A stretch of 64,000 nucleotides of DNA. Origin: Vitis vinifera. Its lineage: Eukaryota > Streptophyta > Magnoliopsida > Vitales > Vitaceae. The stretch spans positions 8,350,501 to 8,414,500 of the forward strand of contig NC_081822.1 in assembly GCF_030704535.1 (NCBI RefSeq), read 5' to 3'. Under the pieces are notes generated by a model that was not told where the DNA came from, did not search any database, and saw nothing but the letters and a program-made list of their open reading frames with translations. Positions 1-38,624 of the stretch are shown piece by piece. Every line of letters starts with the position of its first letter. Position 1 is the first letter of the stretch. Both the position numbers and the translations under genes were made by a program.

Positions 1-198
1 TCCTTCATGTAATTTAGCTAGCACATACTGGGCCTCTGAATGCCCAAGACAGCGAAGATAAGGCCCTGTGAAAGATCGCTTGTACAGGTGCCCCCCGATC
101 AGGGTGAAGCGGGCAGCCTGCACCCGGATTTTGTGCGCTTGTTTAAGATCTTTGGGTAAAGTGCCTGTCCGGAGATATTCTGCAATATCATGCGTCCA
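1..198 (-). pseudogene. Retrotransposon pol, start of integrase (partial, after in-frame stop)
   Basis: The 66 codons from 198 down to 1 stay open in the same frame as pol and follow directly after a TAA at 199-201. They encode the linker and start of a gypsy integrase, with a GGHLYKR segment and an LHEG at the window edge. LHEG is normally where the first histidine of the HHCC zinc-binding domain lies. The integrase core would lie outside the window. Because the frame is unbroken apart from the single stop, I read this as one polyprotein interrupted by a nonsense mutation rather than a separate gene. Confidence 0.75.
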
Positions 199-2226
199 TT
201 ATTGATTATCCGTTTGGGTTGCCTCAATGGTGTTGCAAGTGGAATTTTCTGCGACAGAGGGATTGGCTTGCACATGTATGGGCAATAAAATGGCTTCTTT
301 GATAGGTAGAGAGGCAGCTATGCCGGCCAAAGCGTCAGCGTGCCTATTGTCAGCTCGCTTAATTTTTTCGATTGTCCACTCGGTGAATTGCTGTAAGGTG
401 CTTCTTACTTTGGCCAAGTATCGCGCCATGCGTGAGTCCTTAGCCTCATATTCTTTCTGGACGTGCCTTACCACTAGTTGCGAGTCGCTGTAGATCCGGA
501 GTTTGGAGACGGATAGAGCAAGGGCGAGGTCCAATCCGGACAGGATGGCCTCGTATTCTGCTTCATTGTTAGACGCGGAGAATCCCAGCCGGATGGCTTG
601 CTCCAGATGTTCCCCAGTTGGGGACTGTAGTAAGAGCCCAACTCCAGAGCTTGATGAGCGTGAGGCTCCGTCAACTCGTAGTGTCCACCACTCTTGTTCA
701 CTTGATTCGTGGTGTTGGTTGGGTCTTCGTGAATATTCGAGCACAAAGTCGGCCATTACTTGGCCTTTTTTGGATAATCTGGGTTGGAATTCGATTCCAA
801 ATTCGCTCAATTCGATGGCCCATTGTAGCATTCGCCTGGTTAAATCTGGTTTGTGCAGAATGCTACGAAGGGGTTGGTCGGTCAATACAATCACTGGGTT
901 GGCTTGAAAATAGGGGCGAAGATTTTGGGCAGCACTTCGAAGAGCTAAGGCTGTTAGCTCCATTTTTGAATACCTGGTTTCTACATCTGCCAATGCCCTG
1001 CTGACATAGTAGACAGGTTTCTGCTCCTTTGGTGAAGGGCAGCGGAATAGAACGGCGCTGATTGCCCATTTTGAGACAGCTAGATACATGTATAGCTTCT
1101 CCTTTGGGATGGGGCTGCTCAAGATGGGTGGATGCATAAGACAATGTTTAATTCTTTCCAACGCGTTTTGGCAATTGTCCGTCCACTCCTGCGTTCCAGC
1201 TTTTCGTATTGCCAAGAAGAAGGGTCGCAACTCATCAGTGAAGCGGGCTATGAAACGTCCTAACGCAACGAGCTTGCCTGTGAGGCGTTGTAACTCCTTT
1301 TTGTTCCTAGGAGGAGGCGTCTCCATGACTGCTTTGACCTGATCTGGGCTGACTTCTATGCCTTTTTGGCTGACCATAAATCCCAGAAATTTGCCAGCAC
1401 TCACGCCAAAGGCACATTTGGAAGGATTTAGCTTCATGCCATACTTTCGCAAGAGATAAAAAACTTCTTGCAAATGGAGGATATGCTGCTCTCGAGTTTT
1501 GCTTTTAACCACGATATCGTCAATGTATACCTCGACCGAGCGGCCTATCAGAGGTTTGAAGATTTTAGTCATCAATCTTTGATACGTGGCGCCAGCGTTT
1601 TTGAGTCCAAATGGCATGACTTTGTAGCAATAGAGGCCGTGTGGCGTTATGAATGCTGTTTTTTCTTCGTCATCCGGAGACATGGGAATTTGGTGATATC
1701 CGGAAAAGGCATCCAAGAAAGAGAGCATCCCTTGCCCGGAAGTAGAATCCACAATTTGATCTATCCGTGGTAAGGGAAAACTGTCTTTTGGACATGCATT
1801 ATTGAGATTGGTGTAATCAACACAGACTCGCCATTTGCCCTCTTTCTTTGGTACCACTACTACATTTGCCAACCACTCTGGATAAGATACTTCTCTGATG
1901 AATCCGACTTCCAACAATTTGTTAATTTCATCTTGGATAACTCTTTGTCTATCCGGATGAAAGCGTCTAATCTTCTGTTGAACGGGTCTGGCTGCTGGAA
2001 AGACGTTAAGCTTGTGAGAGGCAATAGAGGGATGAATTCCCTTCATATCCGAATGTGTCCATGCGAAGATGTCATGGTTGCTTCGAAGGATATTTTGTAT
2101 GCTCTGAATTTCTTCTTGCGTCATGAGGGAACTGATATTCGTGAGGTGATCATTCTCTTCTGAGATTTGGATTGTTTGTAAGGGATCTGCTGTCGGGGGA
2201 TCCTTGTCTGCCGGACCCAATAATTG
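199..2226 (-). CDS. Retrotransposon pol: reverse transcriptase, RNase H and second RNase H
   Basis: This frame opens right after the gag-protease TAG and runs to a TAA at 199-201, about 675 codons. It has no ATG near its start, which fits expression as a fusion with gag rather than by its own start. Visible RT motifs are KWRVCVDYTNLN, MPFGLKNAGATYQ and the catalytic YIDD. An RT-linked RNase H follows, with YYVSRAL and TDQPL in its later part. A second RNase H begins near residue 510 and keeps its acidic residues: D in VDGAS, E in NEAEYEA, D in YSDSQ and D in HADALA. It copies the element's RNA into DNA in cytoplasmic particles. The stop at its end separates it from integrase, so this copy is probably not autonomous. 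Confidence 0.92.
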   Translation of the reverse strand, partial: QLLGPADKDPPTADPLQTIQISEENDHLTNISSLMTQEEIQSIQNILRSNHDIFAWTHSDMKGIHPSIASHKLNVFPAARPVQQKIRRFHPDRQRVIQDEINKLLEVGFIREVSYPEWLANVVVVPKKEGKWRVCVDYTNLNNACPKDSFPLPRIDQIVDSTSGQGMLSFLDAFSGYHQIPMSPDDEEKTAFITPHGLYCYKVMPFGLKNAGATYQRLMTKIFKPLIGRSVEVYIDDIVVKSKTREQHILHLQEVFYLLRKYGMKLNPSKCAFGVSAGKFLGFMVSQKGIEVSPDQVKAVMETPPPRNKKELQRLTGKLVALGRFIARFTDELRPFFLAIRKAGTQEWTDNCQNALERIKHCLMHPPILSSPIPKEKLYMYLAVSKWAISAVLFRCPSPKEQKPVYYVSRALADVETRYSKMELTALALRSAAQNLRPYFQANPVIVLTDQPLRSILHKPDLTRRMLQWAIELSEFGIEFQPRLSKKGQVMADFVLEYSRRPNQHHESSEQEWWTLRVDGASRSSSSGVGLLLQSPTGEHLEQAIRLGFSASNNEAEYEAILSGLDLALALSVSKLRIYSDSQLVVRHVQKEYEAKDSRMARYLAKVRSTLQQFTEWTIEKIKRADNRHADALAGIAASLPIKEAILLPIHVQANPSVAENSTCNTIEATQTDNQ

Positions 2227-2232
2227 CTATTG
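2218..2232 (-). promoter_or_regulatory. Possible leaky stop (CAA TAG CAA TTA) between gag-pro and pol
   Basis: Read on the minus strand from 2232, the codons are CAA TAG CAA TTA TTG, with gag-pro before and pol after in one frame. CAA UAG CAA UUA is the known readthrough context of tobacco mosaic virus replicase, and CARYYA after UAG is its functional core. The match is exact. A leaky stop would give a gag excess over pol. A chance CAG to TAG change in a glutamine run is the alternative. Confidence 0.5.
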
Positions 2233-4512
2233 GTCATGCGTATGGCTGGGTTCAGGGGGAGATGCATCCTCCTGGTTAGCGACTGCCTCACGTGCTATTT
2301 GATAGCACTGGCGAGCGGCTAATTGGCTGCCATACAAGTCAGTTTGCCCTTCGTTGGTGAGGAAACTCACCATTTGATGATATGTGGAAGGGATGGCTTT
2401 CATGTAGTGAAGCCATGTGCGTCCCAAGATGACATTGAAGGGTGATAACTCTTGTACCACCGAGAATTGTACGTTGAGAGTGACTGGACCAGCTTGGACC
2501 GGCAGTATAATGTCTCCTATGGATGTGGTTGATGACCCATTGAATCCGGATAAGATTCGTCCGGGGTTTTCGAGACCCGCGAGACTATGTCCCATATGGC
2601 CAACGACTGATGCTTGCACCAGATCAGCTGAACTGCCTGGGTCGACCAAGATACGTCTTACATCGAAATCTCCTATTTCTAGGGAGAGGATGAGGGCATC
2701 GCGATGTGGCTGTAGCGTCCGGGTGGGATCTACTGGTGGGAAAATGATTGTCCCATCTATGGGGCGAGGGCCCTCTCCAGTAAGACCCGGCCGGATGGAA
2801 TTAATGCGTTCGCGTATTGACGCGGCCCACAGCAATTTCTGCCTTTTCCGCCTGGAATCGTATTCCTCGTCAGATGGGCCCCCGTTGATATAGTTTATGA
2901 CAGCCTTGGGGGCGACTGGGGCCCTCGGGGCCCCAGAGTTATGATGTTGAGATACATCCCTTCCTCCAGTATCTGAGCGGATGTACTGTTTTAAATGTCC
3001 TGCTTTGATGAGCCTTTCAACTAGATACTGGAGGGACCGACATGTCTCTGTTGTATGACCATGGTCTTTGTGGAAGGCGCATTTCTTGCTGCGGTCTCTC
3101 ATGGATGGGTCCGTTTCGAGGGGTCTAGGCCACCTGAAGTCGGACAACCCTTGGATCATTGGGAGAAGTTTTTCATATGATACGGATAGGGGTGTGATGG
3201 GCGGCCTATCCGGACGACTCGGCCCGTCCTGCCTTCGGTCAACTGGTTTTGGCCGGTCCGGAGGTTTGGCATTTCTGTCCGCGCTATCTCTAGAAGCCTG
3301 TCTGGCAACCAAAACTTGTTGAGTGGCTGCACGCACATCATCTTCGAGCATTGAATATTTGTTGGCACGTCTGAACAAATCGTTCATCGTTGTAGGAGGC
3401 TTTTTGGCCAGCGATTCGAAAAATGGAGTGCTTGGACAAATACTTCTCTTGAAGATCTGTAGGACAGCATCCATGCTGCAAACCTCTATTTGAAGTACGG
3501 CTTGGCCAAATCGTTTCACAAATTCCCTCAAGGATTCGTTGTCTCTCATTTTTATATTCTGGAAGGTGCTAATATTCTGCTTGTGTCGAGCAGAGCACAA
3601 GTACTGTCCCACGAATGCTTCAGAGAGGTCCCTGAAATTGTCAACAGAGTTAGGAGGTAGGCGATGAAACCATGAGAGGGCCTGCCCTTGAAGGCTGGCG
3701 GGGAATACTTTGCATAATAATGCATCGTTGCCAATATCGAGCGTCATAAGCTGTCGATAGTGCATGATGTGATCGAAGGGATCGTTGGTCCCATCGTATG
3801 TGGAAAACTTTGGTACGAGGAATCCCCTTGGGGGCTCGTAATGGGTGATATGGGAGCAAAAGGGCGTGGAGAGCATGTCATCCAGCCTTTTGCTGATGGA
3901 GCCAATGGGTGGCTCGTTTGGGAGGTTTCTCCCAGCTGGTCGTTCCGCTAGGTGTGAGTGAACGTTCCGCATCGCTGGGGTGACCATGGGGTCACGATGC
4001 GGAGGTACGTTCTGCACCATGGGAGCGATCATAGGATCGGGGCGCGGCGCCCGGGTTGTGGCTACTGGTGGCCTTGATCTCCCAGGCTCTTGTGGGCCTA
4101 GTCTTGCGCGCATAGAACTTGACAACTGTGATTTTCTATCACGTTGTCTTTTTGCTGAAAAATGAGTGGAATCTGAGCTTTCCTCACGGGGAGCTCGAGG
4201 CATGGGTGTGCGTGGCTCATGGGGCCTTACATTGTATGCTCCTGGGACAGCTCCTGTTGACCCAGGATATATTGATTCTGGCTCTGGCCTAGAGTTTGCC
4301 ACCTGGCCTTTTGAGCGCTGACGACGAGGAGGACCTGACGTAGAGGCTTGAATGCGTAACACAGCGTTTTCTTCCCTTAACCTCTCCGTCTCCTGGAGGA
4401 GAGCTCTTAGCTGTTTTTCGCTCGCCAACTGTCTTTTTTCGATGGCTTGACGCCATTCGTGATTATCTTCCTCCTTTCTACCAGATGATCGACTTTGGGA
4501 AGGTGTGGCCAT
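2227..4512 (-). CDS. Retrotransposon gag-protease polyprotein
   Basis: A 761-residue protein from the ATG at 4512-4510. An N-terminal charged stretch (about residues 15-55, rich in E, R, L and Q) looks like a coiled coil. A long Pro/Arg-rich linker follows, then the retrotransposon gag core near residues 235-345 (PKFSTYDGTNDP, then ALSWFHRLPPNS). A short Cys/His element CAFHKDHGHTTETC stands where a zinc knuckle usually is. An aspartic protease lies near residue 620, with DPGSSADLV in place of the usual DTG/DSG-SSADIL. Gag builds the particle and the protease cuts the polyprotein. The frame ends in TAG at 2229-2227, directly followed in frame by pol. DPG instead of D[TS]G at the protease active site is odd and may reduce activity. 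Confidence 0.9.
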   Translation of the reverse strand: MATPSQSRSSGRKEEDNHEWRQAIEKRQLASEKQLRALLQETERLREENAVLRIQASTSGPPRRQRSKGQVANSRPEPESIYPGSTGAVPGAYNVRPHEPRTPMPRAPREESSDSTHFSAKRQRDRKSQLSSSMRARLGPQEPGRSRPPVATTRAPRPDPMIAPMVQNVPPHRDPMVTPAMRNVHSHLAERPAGRNLPNEPPIGSISKRLDDMLSTPFCSHITHYEPPRGFLVPKFSTYDGTNDPFDHIMHYRQLMTLDIGNDALLCKVFPASLQGQALSWFHRLPPNSVDNFRDLSEAFVGQYLCSARHKQNISTFQNIKMRDNESLREFVKRFGQAVLQIEVCSMDAVLQIFKRSICPSTPFFESLAKKPPTTMNDLFRRANKYSMLEDDVRAATQQVLVARQASRDSADRNAKPPDRPKPVDRRQDGPSRPDRPPITPLSVSYEKLLPMIQGLSDFRWPRPLETDPSMRDRSKKCAFHKDHGHTTETCRSLQYLVERLIKAGHLKQYIRSDTGGRDVSQHHNSGAPRAPVAPKAVINYINGGPSDEEYDSRRKRQKLLWAASIRERINSIRPGLTGEGPRPIDGTIIFPPVDPTRTLQPHRDALILSLEIGDFDVRRILVDPGSSADLVQASVVGHMGHSLAGLENPGRILSGFNGSSTTSIGDIILPVQAGPVTLNVQFSVVQELSPFNVILGRTWLHYMKAIPSTYHQMVSFLTNEGQTDLYGSQLAARQCYQIAREAVANQEDASPPEPSHTHDQ

Positions 4513-4549
4513 CTTTGCTAGTGACTGAATCAGAATAAAAAGTAAAAGA

Positions 4550-4567
4550 TTCCCACAGACGGCGCCA
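4550..4567 (-). other. Retrotransposon primer-binding site
   Basis: On the minus strand this reads TGGCGCCGTCTGTGGGAA and begins four bases after the end of the LTR. TGGCGCCG is the usual start of the primer-binding site in many plant gypsy elements, where a host tRNA 3' end primes minus-strand DNA synthesis. Its position next to the LTR end supports both calls. I cannot assign the exact tRNA. Confidence 0.75.
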
Positions 4568-4571
4568 ATGT

Positions 4572-5376
4572 TGTAACCTCGCGTATCCAGTGGTCCACGT
4601 TGCTGCTAGATGGATGGGCACGTGAATCTCAACACACAAGGGGTTCTTGATTCAGCGGTTGCACCTGCAAAAGGACATCCGAACAGGGTGTCCGGACACA
4701 CCCTTCGATGGTTTTGTTAGCCATGGTCAGAGAAAGATATATAAATCAGTTGGCCTTTTACTAGGTATCAAGAGGTTACCAGGGGATCATCCTCTCCTTC
4801 TTCGTGTGAAGGCATATATATATAGCTTCAGGGGTACTGCTCCTTTCATTAATGGTGAGGAGATATTTTATGTTGTGATGATGATAATAGGTGTCAGTAG
4901 GAGCACTATTATCCTACGAATGGCTGTCAGAGACCATGGTAGGTGATGTGGCTGTCAGAGATCGTGGAAAGTGATTATGTAGAATGATCGTGGGAAGTGA
5001 CTTGCTGTCACTTCCTCTTGTCTTCTCATTCTGCAGGTGATGGGATGTGGGCCATGGCCGCTTGTTGTGATTGCGTGTAAGACTCGCTTTACTTTAATTG
5101 ATCATCCAGACGATTTATATCCGGATGGCTCATGCTGATTATCCGGATGTGTTGTAGAGACCATCCGGATGTCTACGTTCTGCCAGCGTCGTTTGCTCTT
5201 CCTTGGATAGGAGAAGCTGAAGCGTCGTTTGCCTTTCCTTGAGGTGGTCCGGATAGGATAACTGCACCATGCATATCTTTGGGGGAATCCGGATGATGAT
5301 GGTCCGGCTGATAATACGTGCCACGCGTCACCATGAGCCGCGTGCCACGTGTTTCCTAAGAGGAGGGGTCCCTACA
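4572..5376 (-). repeat. 5' LTR of the Tat-like retrotransposon (805 bp)
   Basis: On the minus strand it starts TGTAGGGACCCCTCC at 5376 and ends GTTACA at 4572, so it has the usual TG...CA ends. Its start, TATA region and end match the solo LTR at 27152-27867, including the stretch from the TATA box through an ACCATGGCT block to the end. It holds six TCCGGA palindromes (4691, 5120, 5142, 5164, 5248, 5288) and short direct repeats of GGCTGTCAGAGA around 4921-4970. Confidence 0.9.
4814..4824 (-). promoter_or_regulatory. TATA box of the 5' LTR
   Basis: An alternating TATATATATA run inside the LTR, placed about 240 bp before the LTR's inner end, as expected for the U3 promoter. The solo LTR has the same feature at 27644-27655. 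Confidence 0.55.
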
Positions 5377-9076: not shown

Positions 9077-9222
9077 CCAAACCCTTTTTATCTTCTTGAG
9101 CTTCTTTTCAACATTTGCTTTTCCCTCATCAATCATCTTCTCCTTCTTTGTCTTCTGCAACATCTGTCTAATCTCTTCTATAATAGCGGGATCCGGGGTT
9201 GGGGTCTTGTGCCCGTTCAGAC

Positions 9223-10508
9223 ATGGCAGTGGAGCTGATGATGGGGTACGCCAACGATAGTTTTGCAGCAAAAATGGAAGATAATGCTCTCCAGGAAGCT
9301 GCGTCTGCTGGGATCCAGAGCGTTGAGAAGCTTGTAAAGTTGCTATCTCAATGCCAGCAACAGAAGCAGACCACAACCTCTCTGGAAATTGATATTGATT
9401 GCACGGCTGTTGCGGACATGGCCGTCACCAAGTTCAAGAGGGTTATTTCGTTGCTGGATCGAACAAGAACTGGTCACGCTCGCTTCAGAAGGGCTCCTTT
9501 GGTGCCTCCTCAACAGCCGCCCCAAGATACCGACACCCCAGTTCCTGTTAGCCATCACCAGCCGGCTGAGGATAAACAAACCTCTGTTTCTAAGATTTAT
9601 TGTCCAACTCCTGTTCATCGTCTCCCTCCTCTCCCTCATAACCACCAACCTCACCACCATCACCATCACCATAGCCCCAATCTAATGTTGCCCAAGAAGG
9701 TAGCCATAGAGAAGAAGGAATCTATGACTACAATCAATTTCACAACTTCTCATTCAGTCTCTGCTCCCAACTCTTTCGTATCATCGTTAACGGGAGACAC
9801 CGAAAGCGTCCAACCGTCTTTATCGTCTGGGTTTCATATTTCGAATCTATCACAGGTTTCATCTGCGGGTCGGCCTCCTCTTTCCTCGTCTTCATTGAAG
9901 AGAAAGTGCAGTTCAATGGACGACGCAGGTGCCAAGTGCGGATCATCTTTTGGGCGGTGTCATTGTTCTAAGAAAAGGTTGGTCCTCATCGTCAACACTC
10001 TTTAAGTTTGCATATTTTCGTTTAAGCGGTGACGGAATTGATTTTAATTGGATTATGTTGTTGATTGAACAGGAAATTGAGAGTGAAGAGAGTGGTCAGA
10101 GTTCCTGCAATAAGCACCAAGATGGCTGATATTCCACCGGATGATTTTTCTTGGAGAAAGTATGGTCAGAAACCTATCAAAGGTTCTCCGCATCCAAGGT
10201 ATGTGTTGTTTGGACTGCACACCCTCAATCACAGCCTCTTTTCCTATTTTGTATGGTTTCTTCACCCGGTTTTTGACTCGTTTACTAACCCGGTCAAATT
10301 GTATGCTGAGTCTGAACATATTTTTTTGGGAATTCGTGTAAGCAGGGGATATTACAAGTGCAGTAGCGTGAGAGGGTGCCCCGCACGCAAACACGTGGAA
10401 CGGGCTCTCGACGATCCGACGGTGCTGACTGTCACCTATGAAGGCGATCACAACCACTCTCAATCAATTACGGACGCTACTGCAGCTCTCGTTCTCGAAT
10501 CATCCTAA
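9223..10508 (+). CDS. WRKY transcription factor, group IId (WRKY7/11/15-like)
   Basis: Three exons, 9223-9977, 10073-10198 and 10346-10508, joined by GT-AG introns with consistent phase, give 347 residues. The start MAVELMMGY matches the group IId N-terminus. In order I see the conserved C-motif [16 protein letters not shown] (about 64-80; known in this group to bind calmodulin), the RTGHARFRR motif (about 80-88), a His run, a basic zinc-cluster region ending SKKRKLRVKR, WRKYGQK (about 279-285) and a C-x5-C...HNH zinc finger. The second intron splits the WRKY domain after the PR codon, the usual place for this group. It binds W-box DNA in the nucleus, and group IId members act in defence and senescence. 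The exact orthologue (7, 11, 15 or 17) cannot be fixed from this sequence. Confidence 0.95.
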
Positions 10509-23172: not shown

Positions 23173-24486
23173 ATGTCTAGTTCATTTTTCATTGTTGTGA
23201 TAACCTTGTTCATCTTGGGATGCCAAGGACAAAATCCAAAACGTGGCCTCCCTCCCCCTCAAGGACAATATCCAACACGTCCCCCCCCTCCCCCTCGTCT
23301 TCCTCCGCGTCCACGATTTCCAAGCTTGGGAGGTCCACTTCTCCCACGTCAACCAGCCAATAGGCCCGGACCCCTCAGTAACAGAAACCTTGTTCTGTTC
23401 ATAACCCAAGAGCTCAAGAGGAACATTACATCTGACCCCCAAAACTATACAGGCTCCTGGGTTGGCAGGAACTACTGCCTCTTCAAGGGGTTCTACTGTG
23501 ATACTGTGCCCGACAAGAACATTACTGGGCTTGCCGGCATTGATTTCAACGGCGCCAGGTTTGGCGGTAACTTAAACTTTTATCGCTTCATCCGCTTTCT
23601 TCCTGACATTGCCATCTTTCATGCAAATTCCAATAACTTCAGCGGCGTCATTCGTCCAAATATCAACAAATTGAGATATTTCTACGAGATTGATCTGAGC
23701 AATAATGGATTCCAGGGAGGGTTCCCCGTTTCCGTTATTGGTGCACTTCAATTGACCTTCGTGGACGTTCGTTTCAACACCTACAATGGCCCAGTTCCTC
23801 CTCGGGTATTCAGTATCCAAACTGATGTTCTCTTCATCAACAATAATAATTTCGCCCAAAGAATTCCTAGCGCATTCGGCAACACCACTGCGCGCTATAT
23901 TACCCTTGCCAACAACGGATTCATCGGTTCCATCCCTCAGAGCATTGGCCGAACTTGGCAAACCCTAACTGAGGTTCTCTTCTTGAAAAACCGCCTCTCC
24001 GGTTGCCTCCCATATGAAATTGGGTTCTTGCAAATGGCCACCGTTTTTGATGCAGGGTTCAACACGTTGACGGGTCCTATACCGCAATCTTTTGCTTGCT
24101 TGAAGAAGCTGCAGCTGCTGAGCTTGGCGCACAACCAGTTCTACGGCAGAATTCCAGACTCATTATGTCGGCTACCCAACGCATACAATTTTACTTTGTC
24201 ATATAATTACTTCAACTCCATAGGTCCATACTGCAAGAGGTTGGTGAACATTGGGAGGCTCGATGTGAGGAGGAACTGCATTACGGGTTTGCCGAATCAA
24301 AGATCTGCAGCGGAGTGTACGGCCTTCTACTCCGTATCTAGGACATGTCCGCGCCCGGGTTCCTTCAACGTAATTACTTGTTCGAACCCAGCTGCTTCAT
24401 TAAGCAGCGCCCAAGTTGCTTCACTACAAGCAATGGCTCCGGCTCCCTCACCCGTCACCTACAAAGCCCTTGAGCCTCCCCGATGA
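23173..24486 (+). CDS. Secreted leucine-rich repeat protein, LRX/At4g06744-like
   Basis: Single exon, 437 residues. A signal peptide (about 1-19, ending LGCQG) is followed by a Pro-rich stretch (about 25-65, with PPPPPRLPPRPR), then a cysteine-paired N-cap (NYCLFKGFYCDTV) and about eight plant-type LRRs ([37 protein letters not shown]). It ends with a Cys cap (AECTAFYSVSRTC) and a short Ala/Pro tail. No transmembrane segment or kinase follows, so it is probably extracellular, in the cell wall. The LRR part is the same type as in leucine-rich repeat extensins, but the long Ser-Pro4 extensin tail is missing. Related plant genes are known only as uncharacterised At4g06744-like. A broken paralogue lies about 4 kb downstream. 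Confidence 0.9.
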   Translation: MSSSFFIVVITLFILGCQGQNPKRGLPPPQGQYPTRPPPPPRLPPRPRFPSLGGPLLPRQPANRPGPLSNRNLVLFITQELKRNITSDPQNYTGSWVGRNYCLFKGFYCDTVPDKNITGLAGIDFNGARFGGNLNFYRFIRFLPDIAIFHANSNNFSGVIRPNINKLRYFYEIDLSNNGFQGGFPVSVIGALQLTFVDVRFNTYNGPVPPRVFSIQTDVLFINNNNFAQRIPSAFGNTTARYITLANNGFIGSIPQSIGRTWQTLTEVLFLKNRLSGCLPYEIGFLQMATVFDAGFNTLTGPIPQSFACLKKLQLLSLAHNQFYGRIPDSLCRLPNAYNFTLSYNYFNSIGPYCKRLVNIGRLDVRRNCITGLPNQRSAAECTAFYSVSRTCPRPGSFNVITCSNPAASLSSAQVASLQAMAPAPSPVTYKALEPPR

Positions 24487-28594: not shown

Positions 28595-29976
28595 ATGAGC
28601 GGCCTTTTCTCCATCAGTACTAAATTTTCAACCTTGTGCATATGCCTCATATTTCTTGCCATCAATACTGAAGGAGAGAGTAGCAACAGAGAAATTTTGG
28701 AGCTCACTATTGGTGGCGGCAGTGGCGACAGAGGCGGTGGTGGAGGTGGAAACAGAACACAAAAGGTGAAACTTTGGAATCCATTTTGTTCACTTCCTCC
28801 CCACTTTGCATTGCAATTTCCACCACTACCATACGGTATACCACCACCACCACCTCCCGTCGGACCAGAAGTTTTGGTCTTTGACGACCAAAGGCGCGCT
28901 GTGGTTTACCCTGTCATCCAAAAATTCAAGGCCATAATCACCTCAGTCCCTCTAGGCATCGCCAAATCCTGGCAAGGTTTGGACATATGCAGCTGCAAAG
29001 GATTCTACTGTGACAATCCACCAGACAACAAAACCGCCATTGCTCTCGCCTCCATTGACTTCAACGGATTCCAGCTTGGCGCCCCCACCCTCGATGGCTT
29101 CATCAACCAACTTACAGACATTGCTCTCTTTCATGCAAATTCCAACAACTTTGCCGGCACCAACCCTCCGGATATTGCCAAGCTACCTTGTCTCTACGAG
29201 CTAGACATAAGTAACAATAAATTGTCAGGCTCATTTCCAAGGGCAATTTTGGGAATTAAAAGCCTAACCTTCTTGGATATTCGGTTCAATCTCTTTACTG
29301 GGTCCGTACCATCTCAATTATTTTCACAGAATCTTGATGTCCTCTTCATCAAAGATAACAATTTCAGGCAGACGCTGCCTGATAACCTGGGCAACACTCA
29401 CGTTCTTTGTCTTATATTTTAGCCAACAACAGATTCATGGGTCCTATCCCACGAAGCATTAACAAAACTTTGTCCACTCTAACTGAAGTTCTCTTCCTAA
29501 ACAATATGCTAACTGGTTGTCTGCCCCTCGAGATAGGATTTTTAAAGGAGGCCAGGGTGTTCGATGTAGGAAACAATCGGCTTACAGGTCCAATACCATT
29601 CTCCTTGGGTTGCCTGGAGAAGGTGGAGGAGCTCAACTTTGCCGGTAAACTCTTCTATGGAATGGTGCCAGAGGTGCTTTGTCAACTCCCAAATTTGTTG
29701 AATTTGTCTTTGTATGATAATTATTTTATGCAAGTAGGGCTAGCATGTAGGAGCTTGATTTGGAAGGGGCTCTTGGATATTAGAAAGAACTGCATTCCTG
29801 ATCTGCCATTTCAAAGATCCGTAGCTGAATGCGCAGATTTATTTCAGTACCCAAGGTTCTGTCCTTACATGAACTCACATTCCTTGCAAGCCTCGGCATC
29901 TTGGTTCTCCGGGTTCTTTGATTCCCTAAAATGGCTGCTTAGCCTTGTCATTCTCTTTTCATGCAAACCACTTTGA
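28595..29976 (+). pseudogene. Second LRR secreted protein, frameshifted paralogue
   Basis: The frame opens at ATG 28595 with a signal peptide (to about ...INTEGES), a Gly-rich stretch ([13 protein letters not shown]) and a Pro-rich segment. A Cys N-cap and LRRs follow that align motif by motif with the gene at 23173 ([27 protein letters not shown]). At about 29400 the frame breaks after LGNT and closes with TAG at 29420-29422. The alignment resumes in another frame from [11 protein letters not shown] and continues through LRRs to the Cys cap ([13 protein letters not shown]), ending at 29976. The intact paralogue shows the break is a net one-base shift, not an intron. The C-terminal tail is hydrophobic and unlike the paralogue's. 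It is either a recent pseudogene or, less likely, a sequencing error. Confidence 0.85.
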
Positions 29977-35215: not shown

Positions 35216-35596
35216 TTAAAACTTAAAAAGAGAATGGCCTAGTGAAGCAGCTGTTAAAATTTTGGTGTAAGAAGAGAAGCCGTACAGATAACATTTTAAA
35301 TTTTTTAACACAATGGGATCAGACAGACTTTCCTCTGCTCGCCTCTTTTTTTTACTTGCCCACCTTCACGTGATTCTGAGCTTGCAGTCCGACAGCTGCT
35401 CTGTCACGTTCTGCACCCTGCTCACTTCCCTTCTCCCCTCTAGTGTCGTACCTTCTTCTATCCCCATTCCCTCTTCACTCTCCCAAGCCTAAACCCTAAC
35501 AGGGAACGAAATGCATGATCAGAGTAGATGCTGCTGAAGTTGTAGAGAGACAGGGCTCAGCTGGCATTATTGGCTTCTCTTTCTGATTCACTAAAA

Positions 35597-38500
35597 ATGC
35601 TCAATACTACACAGTCTCTTGCTCCGTGCTTGTTTATTCTCTCGGTCGCTTTTTTGACTGCTTCTTCCACTGCTGCCACTCATCCACCGCATGCTGTTTC
35701 GCCCTCGCCCTCGCCCACGCTACCACCATCTGATGCCATTGCCCTTGTCATGTTCAAATCCAAAGCCGACTTGGGTAACAAGCTTCGCTTCACTGCAAGC
35801 ACCAGTCTCAATTACTGCTATTGGCAAGGAGTCACATGCCTCCGAGGGAAAGTGGTGCGCCTAGTTCTGGAAGGGCTCGATCTCGGTGGGGTTTTTGGTC
35901 CTGACACATTGAGTCGTCTTGACCAACTTAGAGTCCTCAGTTTGCAGAACAACTCGCTCGTTGGACCCATTCCAGATCTCTCCAAATTCTTCAATCTCAA
36001 GGCTCTGTTTCTTGATCACAACTCGTTCACGGGCTCTTTTCCACCTTCAATCTCGTCGCTTCATCGGCTTCGAACCCTTGATTTCTCTTACAATAATCTG
36101 ACCGGCCCTTTACCTATTTGGTTAACAAAACTAGATCGGCTATACTACCTGCGACTTGAGTCGAACCGGTTCAACGGAACGATTCCTCCACTCAACCAGT
36201 CCACTCTCCAAACGTTTAATGTTTCGCGTAATAACCTCTTCGGTGCCATACCCGTGACACCTACTTTGTTGCACTTTGAAGCGTCTGCGTTCGCATTGAA
36301 CCCTGGTCTCTGCGGTGAGATTCTTCACAAGGAGTGCCACCCGAGTCAACCCTTTTTTAGTCCATCAGCGCCGGTCGCCACGCCACCACCGCCAGTGGGT
36401 CTTGGGCAAAACGAGCAGGTGCACGGTGTTGAGTTGGCTCAACCGTGTCCGAAGAATCATAAGAGAACCGTGGTGATCCTGGGCTTCTCATCTGGGGTGT
36501 TCGTTCTGATTAGTTCACTTCTTTGTTTTGTGATAGCAATGAAGAGACAGCGAAACCAGAGGAACACAGCGCCGACGATGGCTTCTGACTCTGCAGCAAC
36601 AGCCCAGGCTGCGGCCGTGATGAGAATAGAAGAAGAGAACGAGTTGGAGGAGAAGGTGAAGAAGGTACAGGGAATGCAAGTGGCGAAGAGTGGGAGTTTA
36701 GTATTTTGTGCAGGGGAGGCGCAGCTGTATACTCTGGAACAGCTGATGAGGGCTTCAGCTGAGTTGCTGGGGAGAGGAAGCATAGGGACCACTTACAAAG
36801 CGGTGTTGGATAACCGTCTGATCGTCAGCGTGAAGAGACTCGACGCCGGTAAAACAGCGATCACAGATAAAGAGACGTACGAGCGTCACATGGAATCAGT
36901 TGGTGGACTTCGCCACCCAAATCTGGTTCCGCTCAGAGCCTATTTCCAGGCCCAGGAAGAGAGACTCCTCATCTACGATTACCAGCCCAACGGCAGTCTC
37001 TTCTCCCTCATTCACGGTAACGTCATACCCTCTACTCACTGGGTCACTACCTGTCCAGCCTCTTGGACTCGGTTGGACTCAGTGATTCCACATTTTCGAT
37101 TCCAGTTTTTGTTTGATTTGAGACTGACTCTGACCATGGATAGCCACGTAAACATGGAAAATTTAATCATATCCTCGTGGATGATTGCGTGGCATATTAG
37201 TATTGAATATTCCTACCAATTTCTTTCCTGGGCTCTTCATCATTACTCACTTTGAAGTTACTTAGATTTGGGAGTATCTCACTTTTCCACCAATACCACC
37301 TAGAACCTCGCCGCTGTCTACGTTGGGAATTGGTCTTGTGATTCAATAGTTGAATAACACGTTGGTTCGCGAGACTTGAGTCAGCTTAGTGAAGTGATTA
37401 AAGTGCCTGATACCACTTTTTTCCAAATCAGATTTCTAGGGGTAGTACTATATTTGATCCATTACTTGATTGCTCAGCCACCGACGGAGGCTACAGTAGG
37501 ACACCTGAATCTTGGCCGTTGATCATCTTTATTTAGAATGCATCAGGCGCGTGGGATACCACCTACCTTCCCTATACTATGTATGGTGTTTAACATAGAC
37601 GCCCTCCGTATTAATGTGCAATATCTTAGCTGTCGGCTGGGATTTGGGAGAATCCCGGTGGATTTTTTCTGGCTTTTCATTTCGGCGGTCCCATCTGCCA
37701 CAGAATTAAAACTAGCGGCATTAGCATTTCGCTACCTTTGACCGTGCAATAATGAACTTAAGCGGAGCAAATGTGTTGCTTCCACTATCAGACAGGATCC
37801 GCTTTGAACACTGTACAAGTAACATATCTGCTCTGGCAATAGAATAACTTCGCCTTAGTTTTTGATTTGATCCATCGTAATTTCGCCACTGTAGGGGAGA
37901 ATCAGTTACGAGCCATTCCAATGAAATTAATTATGGTCCTCCTAAGATAAAATAGACAAAACTTTGAATTTATTCTATTTTAGAATAATGATAAAATATC
38001 GGTATCCTTTTTTGGAAGAATGTTTTTAAATTTGAATTTGCATGTGCACGATCAGGTTCAAAGTCAACGAGGGCAAAGCCTCTTCACTGGACATCGTGTT
38101 TGAAAATAGCAGAGGACGTGGCCCAAGGTCTGTCCTACATACATCAAGCATGGAGACTTGTCCATGGCAATCTCAAGTCCTCCAACGTCCTCCTCGGCCC
38201 TGATTTCGAGGCTTGTCTCACCGACTACTGCCTCGCCGTCCTCGCCTCCCCCTCCGTAGACGACGATCTCGACTCCGCCTCTTATAAAGCTCCCGAAACC
38301 CGAAATCCCAGTGGGCAAGCAACGTCTAAAGCCGACGTGTATGCATTCGGCATTCTCCTGCTGGAGCTTCTAACGGGTAAACCTCCATCGCAGCATCCGG
38401 TTCTAATGCCAGATGATATGATGAACTGGGTTAGATCCACCAGGGACGACGATGATGGGGAAGATAACAGGATGGGGATGCTTCTTGAAGTAGCCATTGC

Positions 38501-38624
38501 CTGTAGTGTGACCTCGCCGGAGCAGAGGCCCACAATGTGGCAAGTCTTGAAAATGATACAGGAGATTAAAGAGAGTGTATTAATGGAGGACAACGAGTTG
38601 GACCCACTCACTGGGTTGTCCTAG
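35597..38624 (+). CDS. Probable inactive LRR receptor-like kinase (LRR-III, At5g67200-like)
   Basis: Two exons, 35597-37016 and 38056-38624, with a 1039-bp GT-AG intron inside the kinase domain, give 662 residues. A signal peptide is followed by a Ser/Pro stretch, an LRR N-cap ([11 protein letters not shown] to YCYWQGVTC), about five LRRs, a second Cys pair, a transmembrane helix (about 290-313) and a kinase-like domain. The Gly loop LGRGSIG (about 388) and the Lys in VSVKR (about 411) are kept. The catalytic HRD is HGN (about 508) and DFG is DYC (about 528), so phosphotransfer is unlikely. LRR-III members are mostly such pseudokinases that act as signalling scaffolds at the plasma membrane. 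I chose the ATG at 35597 because it directly precedes the signal peptide; upstream in-frame codons include no ATG. Confidence 0.93.

Follow-up and report, generated by a model that had tools for sequence, protein, structure and literature searches.

A TMV-type stop codon retained between gag-pro and pol of a Tat-clade Gypsy retrotransposon family in Vitis vinifera suggests programmed readthrough

Type I readthrough sites, described in tobamoviruses and other plant RNA viruses, consist of a UAG with flanking CAA codons and a CAA UYA consensus (PMC2754532). In the tobacco mosaic virus (TMV) context, UAG readthrough in plants was reported at 32% in a transient assay and at 6–10% in stable lines, with tyrosine inserted at both UAG and UAA; readthrough of UAA in this context was lower yet present, and a C-to-G change at the base after the stop abolished readthrough (PMC2754532). 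According to PMC2194720, CAR-YYA is by itself sufficient for readthrough in TMV and other plant viruses. Among retroelements, murine leukaemia virus (MuLV) has a UAG between gag and the downstream enzymes that is read through at approximately 5% (PMC2194720). Additionally, in SIRE1 of soybean, a plant long terminal repeat (LTR) retroelement, two coding regions are parted only by a stop, and stop codon suppression is described (PMC2829016). Here, we analyse a stop codon between the gag-protease (gag-pro) and pol frames of a Ty3/Gypsy LTR retrotransposon in Vitis vinifera, located in a 64,000-nucleotide stretch of DNA (C18:8350501-8414500, referred to as the window), and propose that it is a site of programmed readthrough.

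On the minus strand, the junction reads CAA (2232-2230), TAG (2229-2227), CAA (2226-2224), TTA (2223-2221) and TTG (2220-2218). The gag-pro frame (4512-2230) and the pol frame, which extends from 2226 to a TAA at 201-199, are in the same phase with no gap between them, as the initial annotation had stated in naming CAA TAG CAA TTA (2232-2221) as the sole barrier. Its statement that pol has no ATG near its start also held, the first ATG being located at codon 35. The stop of the TMV replicase is reportedly exactly CAA UAG CAA UUA.

Copies of the family were collected from the genome (495.6 Mb, 21 contigs) through several searches. A 601-base piece around the stop gave 522 first-look candidates, of which 40 were scored and 30 fetched. 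When the second RNase H-like domain served as query, with 150 of 1,590 candidates scored, 20 further copies of the window family (L031-L050) were obtained; these were selected through a domain located approximately 1.5 kb from the stop site, and 5 of the 20 also appeared in the site-based list. The most divergent copy (L039) was then used as query, with 40 of 465 candidates scored, and revealed an older subfamily of 15 loci, including the query itself, which was dropped. With a third, intermediate copy (L032) as query, the site was read in 20 of the 39 other matches, together with 5 of the 25 unfetched matches of the L039 search. In total, 64 distinct copies were aligned and 25 more were read at the site only, giving 89. 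Nucleotide divergence among the 64 copies was 7.1% and 8.5% within the two subfamilies and 18.9% between them.

Across all copies read at the site, a stop codon was present in 88 of 89 (UAG in 82, UAA in 6, a sense codon in 1), and every one of the 89 carried a CARYYA hexamer, as in type I readthrough sites. Among the 64 aligned copies, the motif types were CAA TAG CAATTA (52), CAA TAG CAATCA (6), CAA TAA CAATTA (4), CAA TAT CAATTA (1) and TAA TAG CAATTA (1). The 25 site-only copies comprised CAA TAG CAATTA (21), CAA TAA CAATTA (2), CAA TAG CAATCA (1) and CGA TAG CAATTA (1). In the 50 copies formed by the site-based 30 and L031-L050, TAG was found in 48, TAA in 1 and TAT in 1, and the copies L031-L050 alone, chosen through the distant domain, had TAG in 20 of 20. 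This position was the only commonly stopped codon: a stop occurred there in 63 of 64 copies, and the next highest value among the 421 codons examined was 4 of 64. Furthermore, 40 of the 64 copies showed no other in-frame stop and no gap over the 160 codons before and the 260 codons after the site.

Stop-to-stop frame lengths, in which frames below full length are uninformative, were also compared. With the first 200 pol residues as query (150 scored of 4,510), a pol frame of exactly 1087 amino acids was found in 55 cases, and one frame was longer (1756). With the last 200 gag-pro residues (150 scored of 1,707), exactly 792 amino acids were found in 43 cases, and two frames had at least 850. 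The frames that run through the border belong to L025, a copy on C1, and L112, a copy on C9; the C9 frame, of 851 amino acids, is present in both length lists. L112, chosen for its run-through frame and excluded from the 89, reads CAA TAT CAATTA in the 45 bases examined. The sense codon of both L025 and L112 encodes tyrosine, which is also the amino acid reportedly inserted at UAG in this context in plants (PMC2754532); these are two cases and may be due to chance.

The flanking frames are under purifying selection on both sides of the stop. Between subfamilies, the last 160 gag-pro codons gave a proportion of synonymous differences (pS) of 0.513, a proportion of nonsynonymous differences (pN) of 0.092 and a nonsynonymous-to-synonymous ratio (omega) of 0.113. 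The corresponding values were 0.478, 0.119 and 0.171 for pol codons 1-34, and 0.541, 0.085 and 0.094 for pol codons 35-260. The same three pieces read in two shifted frames gave omega values of 1.05-2.61. Codon bootstraps, made without L032, yielded an omega of 0.164 (0.047-0.378) for the last 40 gag-pro codons, 0.161 (95% interval 0.045-0.397) for pol codons 3-34 and 0.075 (0.047-0.111) for pol codons 61-260. A conserved coding frame, with omega well below 1 between subfamilies, is observed both before and after the stop, as expected of a type I readthrough site. Within the family, the ratio of nonsynonymous to synonymous variants (N/S) in gag-pro was 0.55 for variants in at least 3 copies versus 1.86 for singletons, and in pol codons 35-260 it was 0.59 versus 1.99. 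Selection on active lineages, together with drift in dead copies, would produce such a contrast between shared and singleton variants. In pol codons 35-260 it indicates that pol has been selected while located behind the stop.

Base-level conservation of the 12-base motif was assessed on a maximum-likelihood tree built without the motif. The motif types require 4 changes on this tree: CAATCA forms one group, TAA forms one group of three plus one tip, and TAT is a tip. Counted by base, the motif underwent 2 inner-branch and 3 tip changes, versus 6.6 and 11.6 on average in codon-aligned windows of 12 bases. Its total of 5 compares with a mean of 18.2, and 7 of 418 windows, the motif window included, were as low. 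When matched for base and codon position, 7.0 inner and 9.2 tip changes were expected (16.2 in total). The two inner-branch changes correspond to TAG/TAA and CAATTA/CAATCA, both of which preserve the stop and CARYYA. Additionally, the third base of the hexamer TTA was unchanged, whereas the third base changes in all 7 other TTA codons of the piece; among the 17 other CAA codons, it was kept in 5. The strongest evidence for function is thus the retention of a stop between two selected frames, to which the base conservation of the hexamer adds moderate support.

Taken together, these data suggest that programmed UAG readthrough very probably sets the ratio of Gag-Pro to Gag-Pro-Pol in this element. 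Most ribosomes would terminate at the UAG and release Gag-Pro, while the CAAUUA (CARYYA) hexamer on the 3' side would weaken termination so that a minority decode the UAG and produce Gag-Pro-Pol. By analogy with the same context in planta, the decoding tRNA would most likely be tRNA-Tyr. The protease would be carried by the abundant product, and reverse transcriptase (RT), RNase H and presumably integrase by the rare one, leaving structural protein and protease in excess over RT and integrase. No convincing structure was obtained on the 3' side from single folds of 14 of the 64 copies. A consensus fold of 14 copies, in which pseudoknots were not covered, reached -5.5 kcal/mol over 126 columns with 14 scattered pairs, 2 of them with double changes, and contained no strong conserved stem-loop. 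Since the context is leaky in plant cells and these 14 copies had no strong conserved 3' structure, most ribosomes should yield Gag-Pro and a minority Gag-Pro-Pol. We infer that the signal functions in the element's own RNA, and likewise its efficiency, the residue inserted there and the requirement for the ratio. The proposal of readthrough at gag-pol had already been made in the initial annotation, and the alignment of copies that it suggested favours function: 88 of 89 retain a stop, within a conserved TAG plus CAATTA type context and with CARYYA in 89 of 89, across diverged copies.

Several observations weigh against this proposal or moderate it. The copies were taken mostly from the top of similarity rankings and do not form a random sample, and all of them come from one genome. 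A sense codon occupies the site in two known copies, L025 and L112. For the first 17 pol codons, omega inside the two subfamilies was 0.44 and 0.45, indicating weaker constraint than in the other stretches, and the contrast between shared and singleton variants in pol codons 1-34 was small (N/S 1.06 versus 1.29). Conservation at the base level is modest, with 1.55% of matched draws as low in total, and if inner branches are counted by themselves, 49 of 418 windows match the motif in having 2 or fewer changes. Finally, most plant groups use one frame and some use two, as described in PMC6317226.

Four other explanations were considered. The TAG could be an ordinary nonsense mutation of the window copy, or of a recent master copy, behind which pol is dead. 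The window copy does have a further pol stop at 201-199, and two copies without a stop at the site are known. This reading is nevertheless barely credible, given that 63 of 64 copies have a stop at this codon and no more than 4 of 64 at any other of the 421, that it is retained across subfamilies in which about half of the synonymous sites have changed, and that the pol located behind it is under purifying selection. The alignment of copies rules out an ordinary nonsense mutation. The chance CAG-to-TAG change mentioned as the alternative in the initial annotation is similarly contradicted by the 63 of 64 aligned copies and by selection on both frames, and the sense codon that it expected in most copies if there were no function was found in 1 of 89. 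Another explanation assigns Gag-Pro only to the stop-bearing copies and lets rare sense-codon copies supply Pol. It can point to the two copies with an uninterrupted border. However, shared variants indicate selection on pol behind the stop (N/S 0.59 versus 1.99 for singletons), and the sense codon of L025 is located on a tip of the tree, which makes such supply next to impossible.

Pol could also be initiated separately, through internal initiation or reinitiation at the ATG of codon 35 or 61. The codon 61 ATG is present in 62 of 64 copies, including 15 of 15 of the older subfamily, and the codon 35 ATG in 49 of 64. On the other hand, none of the 15 older-subfamily copies has an ATG at codon 35, where TTG or TTA is found instead, and the two frames adjoin each other in one phase. 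Moreover, such starts would leave untranslated two constrained stretches, pol codons 3-34 (omega 0.16) and 35-60 (omega 0.24), with 0 bootstrap resamples at or above 1. We consider separate initiation very improbable; translation of pol from its own start, which the initial annotation had named as the outcome that would speak against readthrough, is disfavoured by the loss of the codon 35 ATG in 15 of 64 copies and by the low omega of codons 3-34. The remaining possibility, an alternatively spliced intron that removes the stop, has a precedent in Ogre, another Tat lineage, which does so in pea and Medicago with frames on average 274 bp apart (PMC6317226). The Ogre arrangement consists of separated frames with an intron between them, whereas no gap separates the frames here, and codon-level selection reaches the stop from both sides (omega of 0.16 for the last 40 gag-pro codons and likewise for pol codons 3-34). 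Removal by splicing is thus highly improbable. Programmed readthrough accordingly remains the interpretation that we retain.

Other Tat-like families of the same genome were inspected for the signal. An N-terminal pol match was obtained for 17 of 20 loci (L051-L070), and TAGCARYYA in the pol frame was found in 0 of these 17; 5 of the 17 lacked any in-frame stop before RT over the stretch examined. The absence of the motif from these 17 suggests that the leaky stop marks the window family and not all Tat elements of the genome. The family of L051/L052 has approximately 20 matches, most with inner stops, and is too decayed to read. In L057, L059, L064, L069 and L070, a single open frame encodes everything from protease through second RNase H over the stretch examined, in contrast with the split frames of the window family. 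Stop-to-stop frames of approximately 2358 amino acids recur among other Tat-like matches of this genome. Outside it, no relative was detected in viral contigs, either with the pol piece or with seven aligned RT pieces as query. Scans of genome contigs detected none with the pol piece and one with the RT alignment, namely BMWJ01000029.1 (L111; 4661 bases), which belongs to a Streptomyces clavifer assembly and encodes a plant-type Tat retroelement. This contig is probably a contamination of the assembly. Its protease through RNase H lie in a single open frame, and no in-frame stop precedes its RT.

The features of the element are listed in Table 1. The minus strand of positions 1-5376 represents the 5' part of the retrotransposon, the remainder lying beyond window position 1. 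Two LTRs of 808 bases in the same orientation, 99% identical, were located at C18:8345379-8346186 and C18:8355069-8355876, the latter within the window; from these positions, the element spans approximately 10.5 kb and reaches past window position 1. The near-identical LTRs point to a young insertion. The Pfam domain order is gag, weak protease, RT, RNase H and a second RNase H-like domain, and integrase would fall mostly outside the window; no Pfam match to integrase was found in the 66 pol residues before window position 1. Elements of the Tat clade are distinguished by an additional RNase H-like (aRH) domain (PMC6317226), and in this element PF13456 is located after the ordinary RNase H. 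We assign the element to the Tat clade of Ty3/Gypsy LTR retrotransposons. Within Tat, it probably belongs to the Retand lineage, the aRH after RNase H being observed and the integrase presumed. Retand elements are characterized by an aRH located between RNase H and integrase, by their type of primer-binding site, target-site duplication and extra frame, and by the grouping of their RT.

Table 1. Features of the retrotransposon in the window (positions in the window; aa, amino acids).
Feature	Position	Strand	Basis
5' LTR, 808 bases, TG...CA	4569..5376	-	Sequence; second 808-base LTR matched
Putative primer-binding site, directly after LTR	4550..4567	-	Named by position relative to the LTR end
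Gag-protease open frame, 761 codons from ATG	2230..4512	-	Open frame; 792 aa stop-to-stop recurs in 43/150 scored copies
Retrotrans_gag domain PF03732	3463..3711	-	Pfam, E 2.3e-14
Aspartic protease region, weak match	2416..2679	-	PF13650, E 0.00069, under the Pfam cut-off; DPG motif visible
CAA codon preceding the stop	2230..2232	-	CAA in 87/89 copies
Putative leaky TAG stop, gag-pro/pol border	2227..2229	-	TAG 82, TAA 6, TAT 1 among 89 copies
CAATTA, CARYYA-type readthrough hexamer, first two pol codons	2221..2226	-	CAATTA 82, CAATCA 7 among 89
Pol open frame of the window copy, 675 codons starting with the base that follows TAG	202..2226	-	Open frame; 1087 aa in 55/150 scored copies
First ATG in pol frame, codon 35, unconserved	2122..2124	-	ATG 49, TTG 14, TTA 1 among 64
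Reverse transcriptase PF00078	1375..1854	-	Pfam, E 1.6e-37
RNase H PF17919	886..1185	-	Pfam, E 4.3e-21
Second RNase H-like domain PF13456, taken as the Tat extra domain	325..675	-	Pfam, E 5e-19; lineage meaning from PMC6317226
TAA closing the pol frame early in the window copy, outside the mechanism	199..201	-	55/150 scored copies continue to 1087 aa

The TAA at 199-201 of the minus strand is pol codon 676 and is without a CARYYA context; it is apparently ordinary decay beside the conserved leaky stop. Elsewhere in the window, matches to leucine-rich repeat (LRR) and protein-kinase domains were observed on the plus strand at 23173-24483, 28595-29419, 29407-29973, 35570-37252 and 38100-38621, which suggests LRR receptor kinase genes or gene fragments. 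Also on the plus strand, a frame at 9199-10002 has a match to Plant_zn_clust (PF10533, E 3.3e-05), a zinc-cluster domain that occurs in some WRKY proteins.

Retroelements need more Gag than Pol, and the route by which this is achieved in plant Gypsy elements with contiguous frames has apparently been little tested. The present family, with its high copy number, offers natural variants for comparison, including TAG, TAA, CAATTA and CAATCA. Furthermore, copies that are otherwise intact will be misclassified wherever annotation counts this stop among the disabling mutations. Already known are gag and pol parted by a stop, the suppression of a stop at the pol-envelope border of SIRE1 and the presence of the hexamer in plant viruses (PMC2194720, PMC2754532, PMC2829016). 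A TMV-type stop at the gag-pro/pol border of a plant Gypsy element was not found described in the literature searched, which does not establish its absence from print. As far as that literature goes, the recoding signal is known, whereas its occurrence at this type of border and in this clade of elements is new; the readthrough signal of plant viruses would thereby extend to the junction of gag-pro and pol in a Gypsy retrotransposon.

Compared with the type I viral site, which is located in a replicase, the present one lies at the gag-pro/pol border of an LTR retrotransposon. SIRE1 is a Sirevirus (Ty1/copia) with the stop between pol and an envelope-like frame, whereas the window element is a Gypsy with the stop between gag-pro and pol. 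The SIRE1 hexamer is said to be UAG-CARYYA as well. In MuLV, the protease is encoded after the stop, while in the window element it is encoded before it. MuLV also requires a 3' pseudoknot (PMC2194720), in contrast to the 14 folded copies of the window family, in which no strong conserved stem-loop was seen. Tca2 of Candida albicans and VdLTRE5 of Verticillium have, as here, an in-frame stop between gag and pol (PMC2194720, PMC3441728). They differ in using UGA, in being fungal Ty1/copia elements and in having no CARYYA (PMC3441728). Gret1 of grape is listed as Retand (PMC11963269) and is 10,422 bp long (PMC2576258) versus approximately 10.5 kb for the window element, a likeness of probable lineage and of length only. 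In Ogre of the Tat clade, expression is controlled at the same border, between gag-pro and RT-RNase H-integrase, by an intron spliced from a subset of transcripts (PMC6317226), where the window element has a contiguous leaky stop. As a tentative generalization, which we hold to be possible though rather less than an even prospect, angiosperm Gypsy elements of the Retand branch may use UAG-CARYYA readthrough at gag-pro/pol as their standing means of expression. Related Tat lineages would then regulate the same border in two ways, through the leaky stop in the present family and through an optional intron in Ogre, with the signal of plant RNA viruses shared by convergence or exchange.

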